From: Tenuifilum thalassicum
GTDB taxonomy: Bacteria; Bacteroidota; Bacteroidia; Bacteroidales; Tenuifilaceae
Assembly: GCF_013265555.1 (NCBI RefSeq)
Contig: NZ_CP041345.1
Location: 2,030,581 to 2,094,580, forward strand
Direction of reading: 5' to 3'
Length of the DNA stretch: 64,000 nucleotides
Under the pieces are notes generated by a model. That model saw nothing but the letters and a program-made list of their open reading frames with translations. It was not told where the DNA came from and ran no database searches. Positions 15,198-46,689 of this stretch are shown here, one piece after another; position 1 is the stretch's first letter; each line of letters starts with the position of its first letter. The position numbers were made by a program, and so were the translations under genes.

Positions 15198-15656
15198 ATG
15201 AGGTCATTTATTACGCTACTCTTATCTTTAATTTGTTTTGTTGGTTTTTCTCAATCGAATGTTGTTGAGCGCGATGGGAAATATTACGATGAAAATGGGA
15301 ATGCCTTTTCTGGCATCTACTCTTTATACCATAACAATGGGAAAATCAAGGTTAAAGCAACAATTAGCAATGGCCTTCCCAATGGAGAAATGACCTTTTT
15401 CTATCCTTCTGGAAAAATTAAAGAAAAAAGGGTATACACAAATGGTATAAAAAATGGCAAATGGGAAAAATGGAACGAGCAAGGGGTAAAAACTTCTGAA
15501 GCTAATTTTTCAAATGGCCAAAAACATGGCAAATGGTATGTCTGGGACGATAATGGCACATTACGATACGACATGACCTACACCAATGGTAAAAAAAGCG
15601 GCACTTGGATCATATTTGATGAAAATGGAAAGGAATTATCACGTAAAAAATATTAG
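15198..15656 (+). CDS. Secreted MORN-like repeat protein
   Basis: A 152-residue exported protein. The start at 15198 gives a signal peptide ending VGFSQ; the frame is open further upstream but that part overlaps the previous gene and terminator. After the signal come about five 22-23-residue repeats of the form NG..NGEMTFFYPSGKIKEK, NGIKNGKWEKWNEQGVK and NGQKHGKWYVWDDNG. This is the repeat of the YwqK/MORN-variant family, often annotated as an antitoxin although no toxin partner exists here. Its function is unknown; an extracytoplasmic structural or binding role is the most one can say. Confidence 0.8.
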   Translation: MRSFITLLLSLICFVGFSQSNVVERDGKYYDENGNAFSGIYSLYHNNGKIKVKATISNGLPNGEMTFFYPSGKIKEKRVYTNGIKNGKWEKWNEQGVKTSEANFSNGQKHGKWYVWDDNGTLRYDMTYTNGKKSGTWIIFDENGKELSRKKY

Positions 15657-40352: not shown

Positions 40353-40471
40353 CCGAACGGGGGAATCTTAAAAAAAAGTATTGGTAATTAAACATTTTGA
40401 TTAACTAATTTTTTTAAATTTGTTATATAACATTTGGGAGCTAGGTAAAGCAACTAGATAGAACGAATGCC

Positions 40472-40624
40472 ATGGCAGATGTTTTAAAACAATATAAAGA
40501 TTTGCTTATTCAAAAAAGGTATAGCCCGAATACAGTAAATATAACAACAATTGATGTTATTACTCCAAATTGTCAGGATAACAACAATGGGAGATATACG
40601 AACGTTACCACCAATATTAAATGA
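40472..40624 (+). pseudogene. Truncated tyrosine recombinase (N-terminal remnant)
   Basis: A 50-codon frame. Its first 20 residues (MADVLKQYKDLLIQKRYSPN) match the start of XerC/D- or integron-type tyrosine recombinases: the first helix of the core-binding domain with the conserved K/R-x-Y-S-P-x-T. After codon 22 the similarity stops at a near-perfect 20-base palindrome (40541-40560) and the rest is unrelated. The catalytic R-H-R-Y domain is absent. The remnant runs in the same direction as the three cassettes that start at 40604. It may be the debris of the integrase that built the array, or of another recombinase. Confidence 0.6.
40541..40604. other. attI-like junction in front of cassette 1
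   Basis: ATAACAACAAT occurs twice (40541-40551 and 40578-40588), and the first copy is part of a 20-base palindrome (9 of 10 pairs). The last base of this stretch, 40604, is the G of GTTACCACCA that opens cassette 1. Repeats beside the insertion point are a feature of attI sites. No left arm of an attC can be found here, so a primary attachment site is more likely than another attC. Confidence 0.4.
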
Positions 40625-40653
40625 AGAACCAAAAACAGCAAAAATACTAACCA

Positions 40654-41571
40654 ATGATTCCTGACTATCAAACAATAATGCTACCTCTTTTAAAAACTAT
40701 GAGTGACAAAAAAACTCATAAATTAAGAGAGTTAATTGAAATTCTTTCTGTTCATTTTAACTTAACCGATGACGAAAGAAAAGAATTATTACCAAGTGGG
40801 TCGCAAGCCATTTTTGACAATCGCGTGGGTTGGGCAAAATTTTATTTAGAAAAGGCAAATTTGTTAAAAACAGAAAAAAGAGGTTCTTACCACATTACAG
40901 AATTAGGACTTAATTTTTTAAAATCTAATCCAAAAGAACTAAGAACAAAAGACTTGGAAAATTTTAAAGCATTTAAAGAGTTTAAGCAGTCAATAACGGT
41001 AAAAAACGAAACAGAAAGTTCCGAGCAGGAAAATCAAGAAAATGAAGAATCTAATAAAACTCCTGAAGAAGCTTTAGAATACGCATATCTAAAACTAAAA
41101 AATGACCTTTCAAGAGATTTGCTTGACACAATTAAGGGTTGTTCTCCTGAATTTTTTGAAAAACTGGTAATTGACATGCTGACTAAAATGGGGTACGGCG
41201 GTTCAAGAAAAGATGCAGGAAAAGCATTAGGAAAAACGGGAGACGGAGGAATTGATGGAATAATAAAAGAAGATAAACTTGGGCTTGATACAATTTACAT
41301 TCAGGCAAAAAGATGGGAAAATACTGTGCCCGTGAGAGAAATCAGAGATTTTGCAGGAGCGTTGTTATCAAAAAAAGCAAGAAAAGGAATTTTTATAACA
41401 ACGTCCAATTTTCCTAAAAGTGCATTTGACTTTGTAGAAAGTATAGAACATAAAATAATTCTAATAGACGGAGAGCGGTTAACAGATTTGATGTTTGAAT
41501 TTAATGTTGGTTTATCAACTCAATCAATTTACGAACTTAAACGTATTGACTCTGACTATTTTGAAGAATAA
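40654..41571 (+). CDS. mrr: Mrr-type type IV restriction endonuclease (cassette 1)
   Basis: A 305-residue nuclease that cuts DNA carrying foreign modification, mainly methylated adenine or cytosine. The N-terminal winged-helix Mrr_N domain (about 1-90) starts IPDYQTIMLPLLK and contains RKELLPSGSQ. An acidic linker (about 105-140) follows. The C-terminal Mrr catalytic domain (about 155-290) has the PD-(D/E)XK motif as GDGGIDGII (Asp) and YIQAKRW (Q-x-K). Its length matches E. coli Mrr (304). It is the only gene of cassette 1, starting 49 bases after the GTT core and ending 12 bases before the R'' box. Base composition is markedly AT-rich. Confidence 0.93.
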   Translation: MIPDYQTIMLPLLKTMSDKKTHKLRELIEILSVHFNLTDDERKELLPSGSQAIFDNRVGWAKFYLEKANLLKTEKRGSYHITELGLNFLKSNPKELRTKDLENFKAFKEFKQSITVKNETESSEQENQENEESNKTPEEALEYAYLKLKNDLSRDLLDTIKGCSPEFFEKLVIDMLTKMGYGGSRKDAGKALGKTGDGGIDGIIKEDKLGLDTIYIQAKRWENTVPVREIRDFAGALLSKKARKGIFITTSNFPKSAFDFVESIEHKIILIDGERLTDLMFEFNVGLSTQSIYELKRIDSDYFEE

Positions 41572-41583
41572 AAAATAAAATAC

Positions 41584-41720
41584 TGGTGGTAACAAAGTAC
41601 ATATTGCAGGGCGGGGTTCGGAGGTATGCCAACCGCGGATTCTCGCATCGCAGTTCAGTCCTGGCGGACATGAACGCTCTCCGAAATCCGCTCCGCAACA
41701 TGTACTAACCGTTAGCCATT
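41584..41720 (+). other. attC-like site of cassette 1
   Basis: R'' TGGTGGTAAC at 41584-41593 and the next cassette's R' GTTAGCC at 41711-41717. Between them are two 28-base arms, 41596-41623 and 41679-41706, which pair at 23 positions (AGTACAT.TTGC and TTCGGAG are the best blocks) and leave a central loop of about 55 bases. The length of about 135 bases lies in the known attC range. Confidence 0.72.
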
Positions 41721-41742
41721 ATTGCAAAAAGACCACAAAACT

Positions 41743-42699
41743 ATGAATAGTAGACAAAAAGCGAAAGAATGGATTTATCCACGACATACTGAATTTGAAT
41801 CAGAATTAAGAAAATCATCATCTGAATGGTTTATTAAAAATAGATTCCAAGTTCATAGCAAAATGCCATATTGTTTGGACTCATTAGACAACTGGCGAAA
41901 TAATATCATTTTATCGGAAGTTGCTGATTACATTGAGAATTTCAAAAATGAGAGTGAAAAGAATAATAAACCATTTCCACTTCACAAGTACGCACATCAC
42001 GGATTGAGTAGTCAAGCGATGGTCTTTAATTTAATTGGACCTTTAATTACACGAAACGATTTGACTCCTTTGACTGCCCTACTTGATGCTAAGGGGATTG
42101 TTAACAAATTAAAAAAAGCACAATTTGAATATGAAGACAGGACTGTTTTTAATGAAGATACAGGGCAACCCACTTCAATTGACTTAGTTCTTTTTGACAC
42201 GGAAAATAGACCAAAGATATTTATTGAAAGCAAATTAGTCGAAGCAGAATTTGGAGGTTGTTCTGTTTTTAAAAAAGGAGATTGCGCTGGAGGAAATCCT
42301 ATTGATAATTTACAAGAATGTTTTTTGCATTTCATCGGAAGGAAATATTGGAGGTTAATTGAAAAATATGGCTTCAATGAGAAATTAAAGAATGAAAAGA
42401 TTTGTATTTTAGTAAATTACTATCAGTTCTTTAGAGAGATTTTATTGAGTATTGATAAAGACGGCTATTTTGTTTTGCTTTCAGATGAACGTAGTCCAGT
42501 TTTTAATTATCAAAATGGGGAAAAAGTTCGTGGATTAATACCATTACTAACTGAGTTCGTTCCTGATAAATACAAGGACAGAATAGTTTTAGTTACTATC
42601 CAAGAGATTGTTCTTTCAATTGAAAGTACTGGTAGACACAATGACTGGATAAATGAATTTGAATTAAAATATGGATTAAAAAAAGCAACAAATGGCTAA
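41743..42699 (+). CDS. PD-(D/E)XK-like nuclease (cassette 2)
   Basis: A 318-residue protein from the ATG at 41743; the frame opens at a TTG seven codons earlier. A candidate nuclease core lies near residues 146-170. TSIDLVLFDTENRPKIFIESK gives Asp in a hydrophobic strand followed by E-S-K in the next strand, the spacing of a PD-(D/E)XK active site. A Cys- and Gly-rich segment (GGCSVFKKGDCAGGNP) follows. It resembles the stand-alone PD-(D/E)XK proteins annotated as PGN_0703-like restriction endonucleases, an assignment I cannot confirm. No methylase is in its cassette. Its TAA stop is part of the R'' box. Confidence 0.7.
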   Translation: MNSRQKAKEWIYPRHTEFESELRKSSSEWFIKNRFQVHSKMPYCLDSLDNWRNNIILSEVADYIENFKNESEKNNKPFPLHKYAHHGLSSQAMVFNLIGPLITRNDLTPLTALLDAKGIVNKLKKAQFEYEDRTVFNEDTGQPTSIDLVLFDTENRPKIFIESKLVEAEFGGCSVFKKGDCAGGNPIDNLQECFLHFIGRKYWRLIEKYGFNEKLKNEKICILVNYYQFFREILLSIDKDGYFVLLSDERSPVFNYQNGEKVRGLIPLLTEFVPDKYKDRIVLVTIQEIVLSIESTGRHNDWINEFELKYGLKKATNG

Positions 42700-42826
42700 C
42701 ACGCGGTATAAAAAATTGCCGGGACAGTAGGTTATTCAAGGATTGTAGCCCGCTCCAACTTTTGTGTAACTTGACAGGAAATCGCCCGTAATCGGCAACT
42801 TTTCATACCGCCAACCGTTGTAGGGC
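42693..42826 (+). other. attC-like site of cassette 2
   Basis: R'' ATGGCTAAC (42692-42700, overlapping the gene's stop codon) and R' GTTGTAGGGC (42817-42826). The arms GCGGTATAAAAAATTGCCG (42703-42721) and CGGCAACTTTTCATACCGC (42793-42811) pair at 17 of 19 positions. Both mismatches are A-C on this strand and therefore T-G wobbles on the other, so the bottom strand folds as an unbroken stem. That is the strand used in attC recombination. Confidence 0.78.
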
Positions 42827-42869
42827 ATTAGAAAAACGGGACAAAACGAATTAATAATAAGGGAAGACA

Positions 42870-43997
42870 ATGGCAAATAAAGACCTCATAAAAGCAAAAG
42901 CGGCGAAAAACGATGAGTTTTATACGCAATATCAAGATATTCAAAAAGAAGTAGAAGCATACTTGGAATATAATCCGGATACATTCCGAGGAAAAACAGT
43001 TTATTGTAATTGCGATGATCCGTACGAAAGTAATTTTTTCCGGTATTTTGTGCTGAATTTCGAAAAACTAGGTTTGAAGCGTTTGATAACTACCAGTTAC
43101 AAGCCGTCGCCGATTGCCAATACGCAGTTGAGTTTGTTTGGCGACGACCAAACCTTGCCACAACAAAAAGGCCGTCCGAAAGTAACGGCAAATCGTTTTA
43201 TTATCAACGAAGTAGGCGATTACAATCAAGACGGTGAGTTTAATTTGGAAGATATTGCTGCACAGCTTAAAGCCAACAAAAACAACGAATGGGCGCCATT
43301 AAAAGAGGATGGCGATTTTCGTAGCGAGGAGTGCATAGAACTACTAAAACAGTCCGATATTGTCGTTACAAATCCACCGTTTTCACTTTTCCGCGAGTAT
43401 GTGGCGCAACTGTTTGAGTATAAAAAGAAGTTCTTGATTATTGGAAATATGAATGCTACTACTTACAAAGAGATTTTTCCTTTAATTAAGGAAAACAAAA
43501 TGTGGTTAGGTCCAACTATATCCAGTGGCGATCGTGAATTTCAAGTCCCAGATTATTATCCTTTACATGCTGCTGGATATAGAATTGATGGGAAAGGAAG
43601 GAAATTTATACGAGTCAAAGGTGTACGATGGTTCACCAATCTTGACCATGGACGCCGTCATCAGCCGTTGCCTTTAATGACCATGGCGGACAATCTTAAA
43701 TTCAACAAAAAAATCCAGAAGAATCCTAACAGCTACAAAAAATACGATAACTACGATGCCATTGAAGTGCCCTACACCAAAGCCATCCCCGGTGATTATG
43801 ATGGCGTGATGGGAGTGCCGATTAGTTTCTTAGACAAATATAATCCGGAGCAGTTTGATATTGTTGGCAGCGATTATTATGTTAAGGAAGGACTGTTGCC
43901 GGAATTGGTAAATCCTAAATGGAAGGGTAAGATTGATAGAGGTTATATAGACGGGAAGCGTATGTATACCAGACTTTTTATCAAACATAAGGAATAA
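42870..43997 (+). CDS. EcoRI-family adenine-specific DNA methyltransferase (cassette 3)
   Basis: A 375-residue N6-adenine methyltransferase. It begins with [19 protein letters not shown] and has [17 protein letters not shown] (about 44-60). The catalytic motif IV is NPPF at 168-171 ([17 protein letters not shown]). These are features of the EcoRI methylase family (PF13651). It should transfer a methyl group from SAM to adenine; the recognition site is unknown. An EcoRI-like endonuclease gene is absent. Instead a DUF262-HNH gene follows after two bases, which implies a linked two-gene system. The coding sequence is richer in G and C than the two preceding cassettes. Confidence 0.93.
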
Positions 43998-43999
43998 TT

Positions 44000-45169
44000 A
44001 TGATAACTACACTAAAAACCGATATTACAATTGAGCAAATTTGCGAAGGTTTTGTATATAGCGAACTTGAAGGTAAAGGGCTTTTTGGGCTTGCCGGTAA
44101 ACTGACCATTCAGCCGGAATATCAGCGCAACTACATCTACGCATCCGATGGCGGAAAAAGGGAACAGGCGGTAATTGAGTCGGTTTTGAAAAGTTATCCG
44201 TTGGGTCTGATTTACTTTAACAAAGTGGACGTAGACAAATTTGAAGTGCTGGACGGGCAGCAACGCATTACCAGCTTGGGGCGGTTTGTAACCGGCAAGT
44301 TTGCAATCAAAGACGAAAACGGCAACGAGCAGTATTTTAGCGGCATGGCTCAAGACAAAAAGCAAAAGATTCTCGAAACCAAACTTTTGATTTACGAATG
44401 TGAAGGAACAGAGAGTGAAATCAAAGAATGGTTCAAAACAATCAATATTGTCGGAGTACCGCTTAACGAGCAAGAATTGCTGAATGCCGTCTATTCCGGC
44501 CCATTTATAACAAAGGGGAAAGAGTGGTTTAGCAACAGTCAGAATCCAAATATTCAAAAATGGAGCGCGTATATCAGAGGTAGTGCTGTGCGGCAAGATT
44601 TTTGGCATACGGCTCTTGATTGGGTAAGTAAAGGCAATATCGGCGATTATATGAGCTCACATCGGTATGACGCCGACATTAAAGAGGTAAAAAATTATTT
44701 TGATACCGTGTTAGATTGGGTTTCTGCCGTGTTTGAAGATGTGGAGAGTGAAATGTGCGGTTTGGAATGGGGACGGCTTTACGAAGAGTATCATAAGCAA
44801 TCGTATGATCCGAAAAAGGTTTCTGAGCGTGTACAAGCTCTTTATGCCGATCCTTATGTCAAAAATCGAAAAGGAATATTTGAGTATATTCTGGGCGGAG
44901 AAAAGGATACCAAACTGCTTAATGTTCGTGTATTTGATGAAGCAACCAAAAGGGCTGCCTATAAACAACAAACAAAAGAGGCTAAAGAAAAAGGAATATC
45001 CAATTGTCCGCTTTGCGCTTTAGGTCACGATGCTAATAAGGCAAGAATTTATGAATTTAAGGAAATGGACGCCGACCACGTTACTGCTTGGAGCAAAGGT
45101 GGAAGTAGCGATATTTCCAATTGCCAGATGCTTTGCAAGACGCACAATCGTGCAAAGGGTAATAAATAA
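44000..45169 (+). CDS. DUF262 plus HNH endonuclease protein (cassette 3)
   Basis: A 389-residue protein. The N-terminal DUF262 domain (about 10-230) has the ParB/Srx-like motif [13 protein letters not shown] with D85-G-Q-Q-R89, the likely nucleotide-handling site known from GmrSD-type and related defence proteins. The C-terminal HNH nuclease (about 330-389) has CPLC (336-339), [12 protein letters not shown] with catalytic H360, N374 and LCKTHN (378-383). The usual GmrD domain is absent; a short helical linker joins the parts. It begins two bases after the methylase stop, so the two are translated together. I infer that the methylase marks self DNA and this protein cuts unmarked DNA. Confidence 0.88.
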
Positions 45170-45173
45170 AAAC

Positions 45174-45281
45174 GCCCTACAATAAATAGGACTCTGAGCG
45201 GCGTGCAGCGCCCAGCGAAGAGTCGGTGTTGAACTACACCCGCTGGGTTCGGAGCTATGTACTTAATGACGGTTTTTGTTT
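45174..45281 (+). other. Degenerate attC-like site of cassette 3
   Basis: R'' GCCCTACAAT (45174-45183) pairs with cassette 3's own first bases (GTTGTAGGGC) at nine of ten positions. The palindrome behind it is weak: CCCAGCG (45211-45217) with CGCTGGG (45241-45247), plus scattered pairs. The likely R' is GTTTTTGTT from 45272. The IS256 element begins 49 bases later. Confidence 0.55.
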
Positions 45282-45351
45282 TTTTTGAAGTTAATATTTT
45301 GAAGGGTTCTTTGACGTATTGGGGTCTATTCAAAAAACTGTGTCATTCTAT

Positions 45352-45405
45352 AATTTTTCTTTTTCAAGGCCCTCCACAAATTAAGGGTTTTGAAAAAGAA
45401 AAATT
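45352..45405. terminator. Long hairpin abutting the transposase stop
   Basis: A 22-base stem (45352-45373 with 45384-45405) with two G-T wobbles and a ten-base loop. The two A/T-rich arms give T runs in both directions. It ends exactly where the transposase stop begins, so it can stop transcription leaving the gene and shield it from read-through entering from the cassettes. Confidence 0.75.
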
Positions 45406-46617
45406 CTATTTTGTAAATCGCTCTTCAAATATAATTGATAATTGTGATTGTATTGTTCTCCACGCAAACATTGGCTTTTGCCAGTTGTCCGCTACAAACT
45501 GTTTCTGAACCAGGTAGAGTAGTTTCATTAGCGCCATATCGCTGCTAAACAGCCGTATTGTTTTGGTTACCTTTCTTAACCTGCCATGAAAATTTTCGAT
45601 GACGTTGGTTGTGTAAATCAGCTTCCTGATTTCAGGCGGGTACTTGTAAAAGTTGGTAAGCCTCTCCCAGTTCGTCTTCCAGCTTCTTGTAGCATATGGG
45701 TATTTTGATTCCCATTTGGCACAAAAATCCTCAAGCGCCTGTCTTGATGCCTCCCTGTTCGGCGCCTTGTAAATCTGCTTCATGTCTTTCATTACTGCCT
45801 TGCTATCTTTATATGGCACAAAACGCATGGTGTTACGAACCTGGTGAATTACACATAGCTGGACGTCCGTCTGCGGGAAGCTGGCCTCGGTGGCCTCTGC
45901 AAACCCCTTTAAGTTGTCGATGCTGGCAATAAGAATATCGTTCACGCCGCGCGCCTTCAAATCCGACAGAACCTCCAACCAGAAGCTCGCCCCTTCTGAC
46001 TGCCCAAGATACATGCCAAGGATATCCTTGAACCCTTCCCGGTTAACCCCGATAACGCAGTAAACAGCCTTTGTAACTATCCTGTTCTCTTCTTTTACTT
46101 TAAAATGGATGGCATCCATCCAAACAAGCGGATAAACCGGTTCCAGGGGACGGCGCTGCCACTCCTTCACATCCTCTACAACCCGATCGGTTACTGCAGT
46201 TATTGTCGACTCTGAGGTGTCCAGGCCATACATCTCATGCATGTGCTTGCGAATATCGCTGTAGCTTAGACCCAAGCCGTACATGGATATGATTTTTCGG
46301 TCAAGTTCCTCGTTTAAAACACGTTGTCTCTTCTTGACCAGTTGTGGCTCAAAGCTGCTGTTACGGTCTCGGGGGGTGTTGATCTCTATTGGGCCAATGC
46401 TGGTCCTTAGGCTCTTTGAAAGCTTGCCGTTTCTTCGATTGGGCTCCTCGCTTTCTTTCAGGTGGGCATCAAGTTCCCCCTCCAAACTGGACTCGATAAG
46501 CCGCTTTATCAAGGGTGTAAAAATACCGCCAGCTCCAGTTAACGGTGTACCTGCTTTTAGCTTTTCCATCGCCTCTTTTTCAAAGGCTGCATAGTCAAAT
46601 GGTTCTTCTCTTTTCAT
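45406..46617 (-). CDS. IS256-family transposase
   Basis: A 403-residue DDE transposase (mutator-type). I use the ATG giving MKREEPFDYAAFEKEA; the frame opens 12 codons upstream in the terminal repeat. Catalytic acids are in VWMDAIHFKV (first Asp), IASIDNLKGF (second Asp) and TTNVIENFHGRLRK (Glu). The CVIHQVRNTMRFV segment near residue 255 is an IS256 hallmark. It is intact, without frameshift, and read opposite to the cassettes. Its codon use is richer in G and C than that of the surrounding genes, which suggests recent arrival. Confidence 0.95.
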   Translation of the reverse strand: MKREEPFDYAAFEKEAMEKLKAGTPLTGAGGIFTPLIKRLIESSLEGELDAHLKESEEPNRRNGKLSKSLRTSIGPIEINTPRDRNSSFEPQLVKKRQRVLNEELDRKIISMYGLGLSYSDIRKHMHEMYGLDTSESTITAVTDRVVEDVKEWQRRPLEPVYPLVWMDAIHFKVKEENRIVTKAVYCVIGVNREGFKDILGMYLGQSEGASFWLEVLSDLKARGVNDILIASIDNLKGFAEATEASFPQTDVQLCVIHQVRNTMRFVPYKDSKAVMKDMKQIYKAPNREASRQALEDFCAKWESKYPYATRSWKTNWERLTNFYKYPPEIRKLIYTTNVIENFHGRLRKVTKTIRLFSSDMALMKLLYLVQKQFVADNWQKPMFAWRTIQSQLSIIFEERFTK

Positions 46618-46689
46618 GGTGTCAAATTTATAATTTAACTTTTTATTTGACACAGTTATTTAAATAGCGTCATTTGTTGAGACCCGTAT

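Follow-up and report, generated by a model that had tools for sequence, protein, structure and literature searches.

The gene-cassette recombination site attC2 of Tenuifilum thalassicum probably belongs to a distinct, Bacteroidota-wide type of integron, in which the integrase lacks the I2 helix, the attC sites lack extrahelical bases (EHBs), and fixed A·C pairs on the top strand, T·G on the bottom, provide polarity marks. The site lies within a three-cassette array spanning 40605–45272 of the window, by which we mean the whole 64,000-nucleotide stretch of DNA that was analyzed (Table 1).

As the initial annotation held, attC2 is an attC-type recombination site of a gene cassette. Its left arm (GCGGTATAAAAAATTGCCG) and right arm (CGGCAACTTTTCATACCGC) pair over 19 positions and, just as had been described, differ at only two of them, 42710/42804 and 42715/42799, both A·C on the plus strand and T·G on the minus strand. 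Wobble pairing accommodates the two mismatches on the bottom strand only, so that the stem is indeed unbroken on that strand alone; the folding energy of the DNA is −18.1 kcal/mol for the bottom strand versus −13.1 kcal/mol for the top. The hairpin is beyond chance. A scanner that makes no distinction between strands or between wobble polarities, and that demands ungapped arms, finds two attC2-like sites in the window and none in shuffled window sequence. The cassette boundary at attC2 falls at G42817|T42818. Equally accurate was the observation that the TAA stop of the nuclease gene (ORF 41722–42699) is the TAA inside the R″ box GGCTAAC at 42694–42700. The suggestion that gene and site had been trimmed together does not survive as a rule, since the stop codon falls inside R″ at just 15 of 208 sites and most commonly lies 10–16 nt upstream of it; its place within R″ at attC2 is incidental.

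Table 1. Coordinates of the integron features (window positions unless a locus is named)
Feature	Position	Strand	Description
Integron-type integrase gene remnant	40472–40535	+	Start codon and ~20 codons, remainder deleted; 98.3% to L023 start
attI-like insertion site	40531–40604	+	Crossover end G40604|T40605; 96% to the L023 region after the integrase stop
Cassette 1	40605–41711	+	Mrr-like type IV restriction enzyme gene 40654–41571 (Mrr_cat/Mrr_N; mREase_IV) and attC1
attC1	41584–41720	+	AAC 41591–41593, GTT 41711–41713; A·C at +10 and +15; R1 match 85.8 bits, to be read in light of attC1 itself being in the R1 training set
Cassette 2	41712–42817	+	REase-ARP/PD-(D/E)XK nuclease gene (41722 or 41740 to 42699; PF22558) and attC2
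attC2	42691–42826	+	R″ 42691–42700; arms 42703–42721 and 42793–42811; R′ 42817–42826
Second mark of attC2, at +10	42710	+	A42710 opposite C42804
+15 mark of attC2	42715	+	A42715 opposite C42799, T·G on the bottom strand
Cassette 3	42818–45272	+	EcoRI-type adenine methylase 42870–43997 (PF13651), GmrSD_N-HNH nuclease 44000–45169 (PF03235), degraded attC
~172-bp cassette copies in L031	10905–11078; 13001–13173; third ending near 15554		

The window cassettes each begin with TT followed by an exact or near-exact complement of their own R″, a hallmark of cassettes. The start of cassette 1 (TTACCACCA) closely approaches the complement of its R″ (TGGTGGTAA), and those of cassette 2 (TTAGCCATT; R″, AATGGCTAA) and cassette 3 (TTGTAGGGC; R″, GCCCTACAA, 45174–45182) are exact complements. 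The attC of cassette 3 (45174–45272) retains R″ and a G|TT end, but its arms are unpaired and the covariance model R1 (see below) gives no match; attC1, in the same array as attC2, also bears top-strand wobbles. The window cassette genes are of restriction or defense type, and those of the second platform of this genome are partly so. Directly after the array, window 45349–46653 contains a 25-nt inverted repeat (45349–45408) beside an IS256/Mutator-type transposase gene.

Upstream of the array, window positions 40363–40606 are a copy, in two blocks of 98.3% and 96%, of this second platform (L023; G000:C1:344000–354000), and 438 bp of the L023 integrase gene is absent from the window copy at 40531–40535. 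The L023 integrase, 164 aa in length, is itself without its middle. This platform (L023:892–5355) carries three further cassettes. The attC of one of them is 90% identical to attC2, and one encodes a protein of 706 aa that resembles defense proteins (HEC-05/SspE-like similarity). Judged from their sequences, neither integrase looks functional, and with the local gene deleted and the second copy missing its middle, the window array of defense-type cassettes is a relic. The genome contains 10 R1 sites in all by the model search. Five lone matches scattered elsewhere, some of them weak (G000:C1:1503169, 222357, 2722966, 1539147, and 2705179), are possible isolated cassettes. At L024:3936–4181 lies what is left of a tyrosine recombinase, decayed and containing stop codons, whose end resembles the KIKSPFDDL terminus of the array-linked family. 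A search of 60 relatives with the damaged integrase, a query without its middle, at the strict threshold of E 1e-30 returned no match.

Homologous sites were collected from 80 named loci with their flanks, nearly all from Bacteroidota, fetched via the integrase family. The scanner detects arrays downstream of the integrase in these relatives, against 5 matches in 2.25 Mb of shuffled control. Model R1, for which 21 sites were used and the two columns of mismatches were treated as unpaired, gives 141 matches in the 80 integrase loci, every one of them on the integrase strand (141/141) and nearly all downstream; across a sample of the phylum it matches in 135 of 247 genomes and 78 of 122 genera, counts of non-independent events given the ancestry that related integrases and sites share. 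The stems bear compensatory changes at 13 of their 14 pairs, and the arms, which vary widely from site to site, yet covary within each site across a loop of ~70 nt. Rfam has no family for the attC2-type site, and R1 identifies no site in class 1 integrons and, across 20 loci with a canonical IntI, two marginal ones. The same arms and the +15 mark also occur in a longer class of attC, ~177–180 nt in length (L089:11688–20591; L028:3987–23751). At one locus, L143 (G064:C1:1195000–1213000), a canonical IntI that is truncated has R1-type sites ~4 kb upstream of it, in a stretch with no I2-less integrase; it is the sole case seen in which the two types are close together, and the arrangement may reflect cross-use of R1-type sites by IntI.

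The two mismatches of attC2 recur at fixed positions. Among 173 distinct sites, 105–130 nt in length, an A·C at +15 after the AAC of R″ occurs in 154, and the reversed polarity in none; the mark is found in 53 of 54 loci and 43 of 56 arm clusters. Several of the 19 sites without it are register shifts or chance matches, and in a set gathered by the model, where the alignment allows gaps, it is present in 112 of 125. A second A·C at +9 to +13, mostly at +10, +11, or +12, accompanies the first in 101 of the 154 marked sites and is missing from the remaining third.

Cassettes of this type move, as is evident from the matching of R′ to R″ and from duplicated cassettes with exact borders. When neighboring sites (less than 3.5 kb apart) are compared at six variable positions, all six agree between R′ of one site and the complemented R″ of its successor in 67% of 166 pairs; for random pairs the figure is 0.9%, and within a single site it is 3.5%. 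Duplicated cassettes are found in Flavobacterium saccharophilum (L039; 1088 bp, 99.6% identity), in L151 (~1003 bp, 99.5% identity), and on a Persicobacter plasmid (L028), where a 641-bp cassette carrying the longer attC class is present four times. They start with TT and end with G exactly, giving G|TT borders, and their flanks are unlike. As attC travels with its upstream gene, exchange takes place at R′. Use of the top strand shifts the exchange point to R″ (Bouvier et al., 2009; PMC2727003), and a crossover at R′ would fit use of the bottom strand. The first-cassette boundary could be located in 29 of 29 arrays, mostly 80–136 nt past the stop codon of the integrase gene. The sequence there often reads ATATANACAA|GTT and is preceded by an inverted repeat; this region is likely the attI. 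A ~172-bp cassette with a strong hairpin and no obvious gene, present in three copies on a Chryseobacterium plasmid (L031) and once, at 89%, in Halpernia humi (L098), is possibly a regulatory cassette.

The partner recombinases are as distinctive as the sites. I2, seen as an insert that separates patch II from the RHS motif, is missing from all 36 array-linked integrases examined and present in all 19 canonical IntI, with a KGxxDR-to-RHS spacing of 67–71 residues in I2-less integrases versus 109 in IntI. The array-linked integrase falls in NCBIfam NF040815; two full-length members score 206.7 and 191.5 against TIGR02249, below its curated cut-off of 265 bits, and no protein of this genome exceeds that cut-off. 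One I2-less member was modeled (mean pLDDT 83); its nearest solved fold is XerA (5hxy), with Z-scores of 23.8 to XerA and 21.0 to IntI4, and it has an additional N-terminal β-rich region at about residues 1–56. A tree gathers IntI in a supported group of its own (100/99) and joins the array integrases with a rAID recombinase in another (97/92); the outgroup consists of two Xer rows only, which limits placement of the I2-less group relative to IntI.

The sites themselves rarely bulge in the left arm (13 of 125 model-gathered sites). As a positive control, the same gapped aligner was applied to class 1 integrons, where it places EHBs of the aadA5 and dfrA5 cassettes at +9 and +16. Across 20 loci of the phylum with a canonical IntI, it finds EHBs in 40 of 66 matches (both strands counted), near +9/10 and between +16 and +18, and an A·C at +15 in none, which rules out that canonical IntI sites share the mark; in 16 stretches with sites of the I2-less type, a bulge is seen in 1 of 30 and the +15 A·C in 28 of 30. 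The I2 helix has been described as restricted, among proteins, to integron integrases, and is reported to stabilize extrahelical bases and to be required for cassette capture (PMC7790495). An extrahelical G is described as absolutely conserved and as a requirement for choosing the strand (PMC2727003). Given the reported role of I2, the pairing of an I2-less recombinase with EHB-less sites is coherent. Thus, of the initial annotation's picture of an ordinary integron, the attC-type nature of the site stands, and the expectation of ordinary partners does not, the sites being without extrahelical bases and their recombinases without I2.

From these elements a mechanism may be proposed. Its first steps have support from sequence: the gene of a Xer/XerA-like tyrosine recombinase without I2 lies upstream and reads the same way as the cassettes, which enter at an attI-like point ~100 nt past its stop codon. 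Each cassette closes with an attC of ~120 nt, able to form a hairpin, and is exchanged at the G|TT of R′. As in ordinary integrons, the integrase would recombine the folded bottom strand of attC; lacking an I2 helix with which to read extrahelical bases, it would meet attC sites that offer none. The A·C (top)/T·G (bottom) pair fixed at +15, usually with another at +9 to +13, would polarize an otherwise perfect stem, and this polarity would let the integrase discriminate bottom from top strand and R′/L′ from R″/L″. Because such pairs break the symmetry of the stem, they could label a strand, and their positions lie near those of canonical EHBs (+15 vs. +16; +10 to +12 vs. +9). In its fullest form, which we advance tentatively as a reading that could well prove correct, this amounts to a second, phylum-wide Bacteroidota integron with a folded single-stranded attC, neither I2 nor EHBs, and polarity drawn from fixed T·G wobbles. 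If so, it would be an independent solution, or else a pre-I2 state ancestral to IntI integrons.

The initial annotation had favored the attC of an ordinary integron, with mismatches scattered over the stem that had drifted toward bottom-strand wobble under selection for bottom-strand folding. Part of that prediction holds, as the bottom strand is the more stable in 126 of 173 sites, by a mean difference of −1.36 kcal/mol, and wobbles outside the fixed positions lean to the bottom (51 vs. 17). Yet when positions +6, +10, +11, +12, and +15 are neutralized, the bottom strand folds better in just 88 of 173 and the mean difference shrinks to −0.14 kcal/mol. With nearly all of the bias gone, what had been taken as a diffuse trace of selection over the stem is better described as a positional mark. 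A mismatch conserved at one position is, moreover, the opposite of what selection for a perfect fold would leave, and at +6 the opposite polarity, T·G on the top strand, occurs in 43 of 173 sites, too common for a rule that all mismatches favor the bottom strand. The predicted A·C bias among homologues is therefore real, although tied to position and often reversed at +6. As EHBs and I2 are both missing as well, the drift explanation is largely refuted and we regard it as quite improbable; the A·C mark looks like a label of strand or arm, and not like a trace of selection for fold strength.

Unlikely, though not far-fetched, is classical double-strand recombination, in which R″-L″ and L′-R′ would be two double-stranded core sites with no folded single strand, and the A/G difference at +15 would show the integrase which core site to cut. 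The near-equal resemblance of the modeled integrase to XerA and IntI favors it, as does the lack of I2, to which the capacity for single-strand recombination is attributed (PMC7790495). Covariation of the arms within each site across the ~70-nt loop points instead to recognition of a folded hairpin, and the unpaired spacer by R, A-rich on one side and with a conserved G after AAC on the other, is that of a canonical folded attC (PMC2727003). That the hairpins are transcription terminators or REP-like repeats unrelated to recombination might be supposed from stable stems located after genes. This idea retains next to no probability against duplicated cassettes with exact G|TT borders and co-orientation with the upstream integrase, and the complementarity of R′ and R″ across whole cassettes rules it out.

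A large natural group without I2 and EHBs, whose cassette mobility can nonetheless be followed at single-base resolution, opens the origin of single-strand recombination to direct tests. The sites also matter for integron surveys. For Bacteroidetes proper, one complete integron, that of Salinibacter ruber M1, was named by IntegronFinder 2.0, besides complete integrons in Chlorobi and Ignavibacteriae (PMC9024848), in contrast to the R1 matches in more than half of the genomes sampled here. The open-licence literature yielded no description of Bacteroidota integrons or attC sites of this kind, and priority is thus unproven.

Among known systems, canonical integrons such as those of class 1 and the Vibrio superintegron share with the present type the R″/R′ boxes, G|TT exchange, an asymmetric unpaired spacer, an attI adjoining the integrase gene, and tandem arrays. 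Two of the features that define an integron are found here: cassettes are bounded by R′/R″ with G|TT exchange, and the integrase gene stands beside attI in relatives, the window having a gene remnant and an attI-like end. Excision and insertion by the integrase, a third such feature, would account for the footprints seen in the duplicated cassettes. What defines the canonical IntI family, namely I2 near patch III and a score above the TIGR02249 cut-off, is absent; similarly, the YAAC/GTT boxes and unpaired asymmetric spacer of canonical attC are present and the extrahelical bases of the L″ arm are replaced by A·C/T·G marks, in a site of ~120 nt. Integrase orientation differs too, being the same as that of the cassettes here and divergent in class 1. 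The window array resembles a CALIN, defined by at least two close attC sites and no integrase: two recognizable sites, called by R1 at 41584 and 42691, lie ~1.1 kb apart with no intact integrase, yet they are of the EHB-less type.

Nearer in recombinase are the rAID (recombinase-associated acquired interbacterial defense) systems of Bacteroidales, defined by a recombinase with orphan immunity genes and a conserved short intergenic motif after it. Their tyrosine recombinase belongs to the same I2-less group, and behind it come co-oriented genes with motifs between them (L032; PMC12247911). In the Parabacteroides rAID-type locus (L032:9295–14382), short hairpins of ~46 nt are repeated after genes and are possibly a still shorter site class for a related recombinase. 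These motifs (TAACAA...CCATTA) are unmatched by R1, and the window differs from rAID systems in its R1 sites and in the restriction-type genes of its cassettes. Finally, XerA/XerD-type tyrosine recombinases share core-binding and catalytic domains with the array integrases, which, in contrast, are linked to cassette arrays rather than to dif-type dimer resolution.
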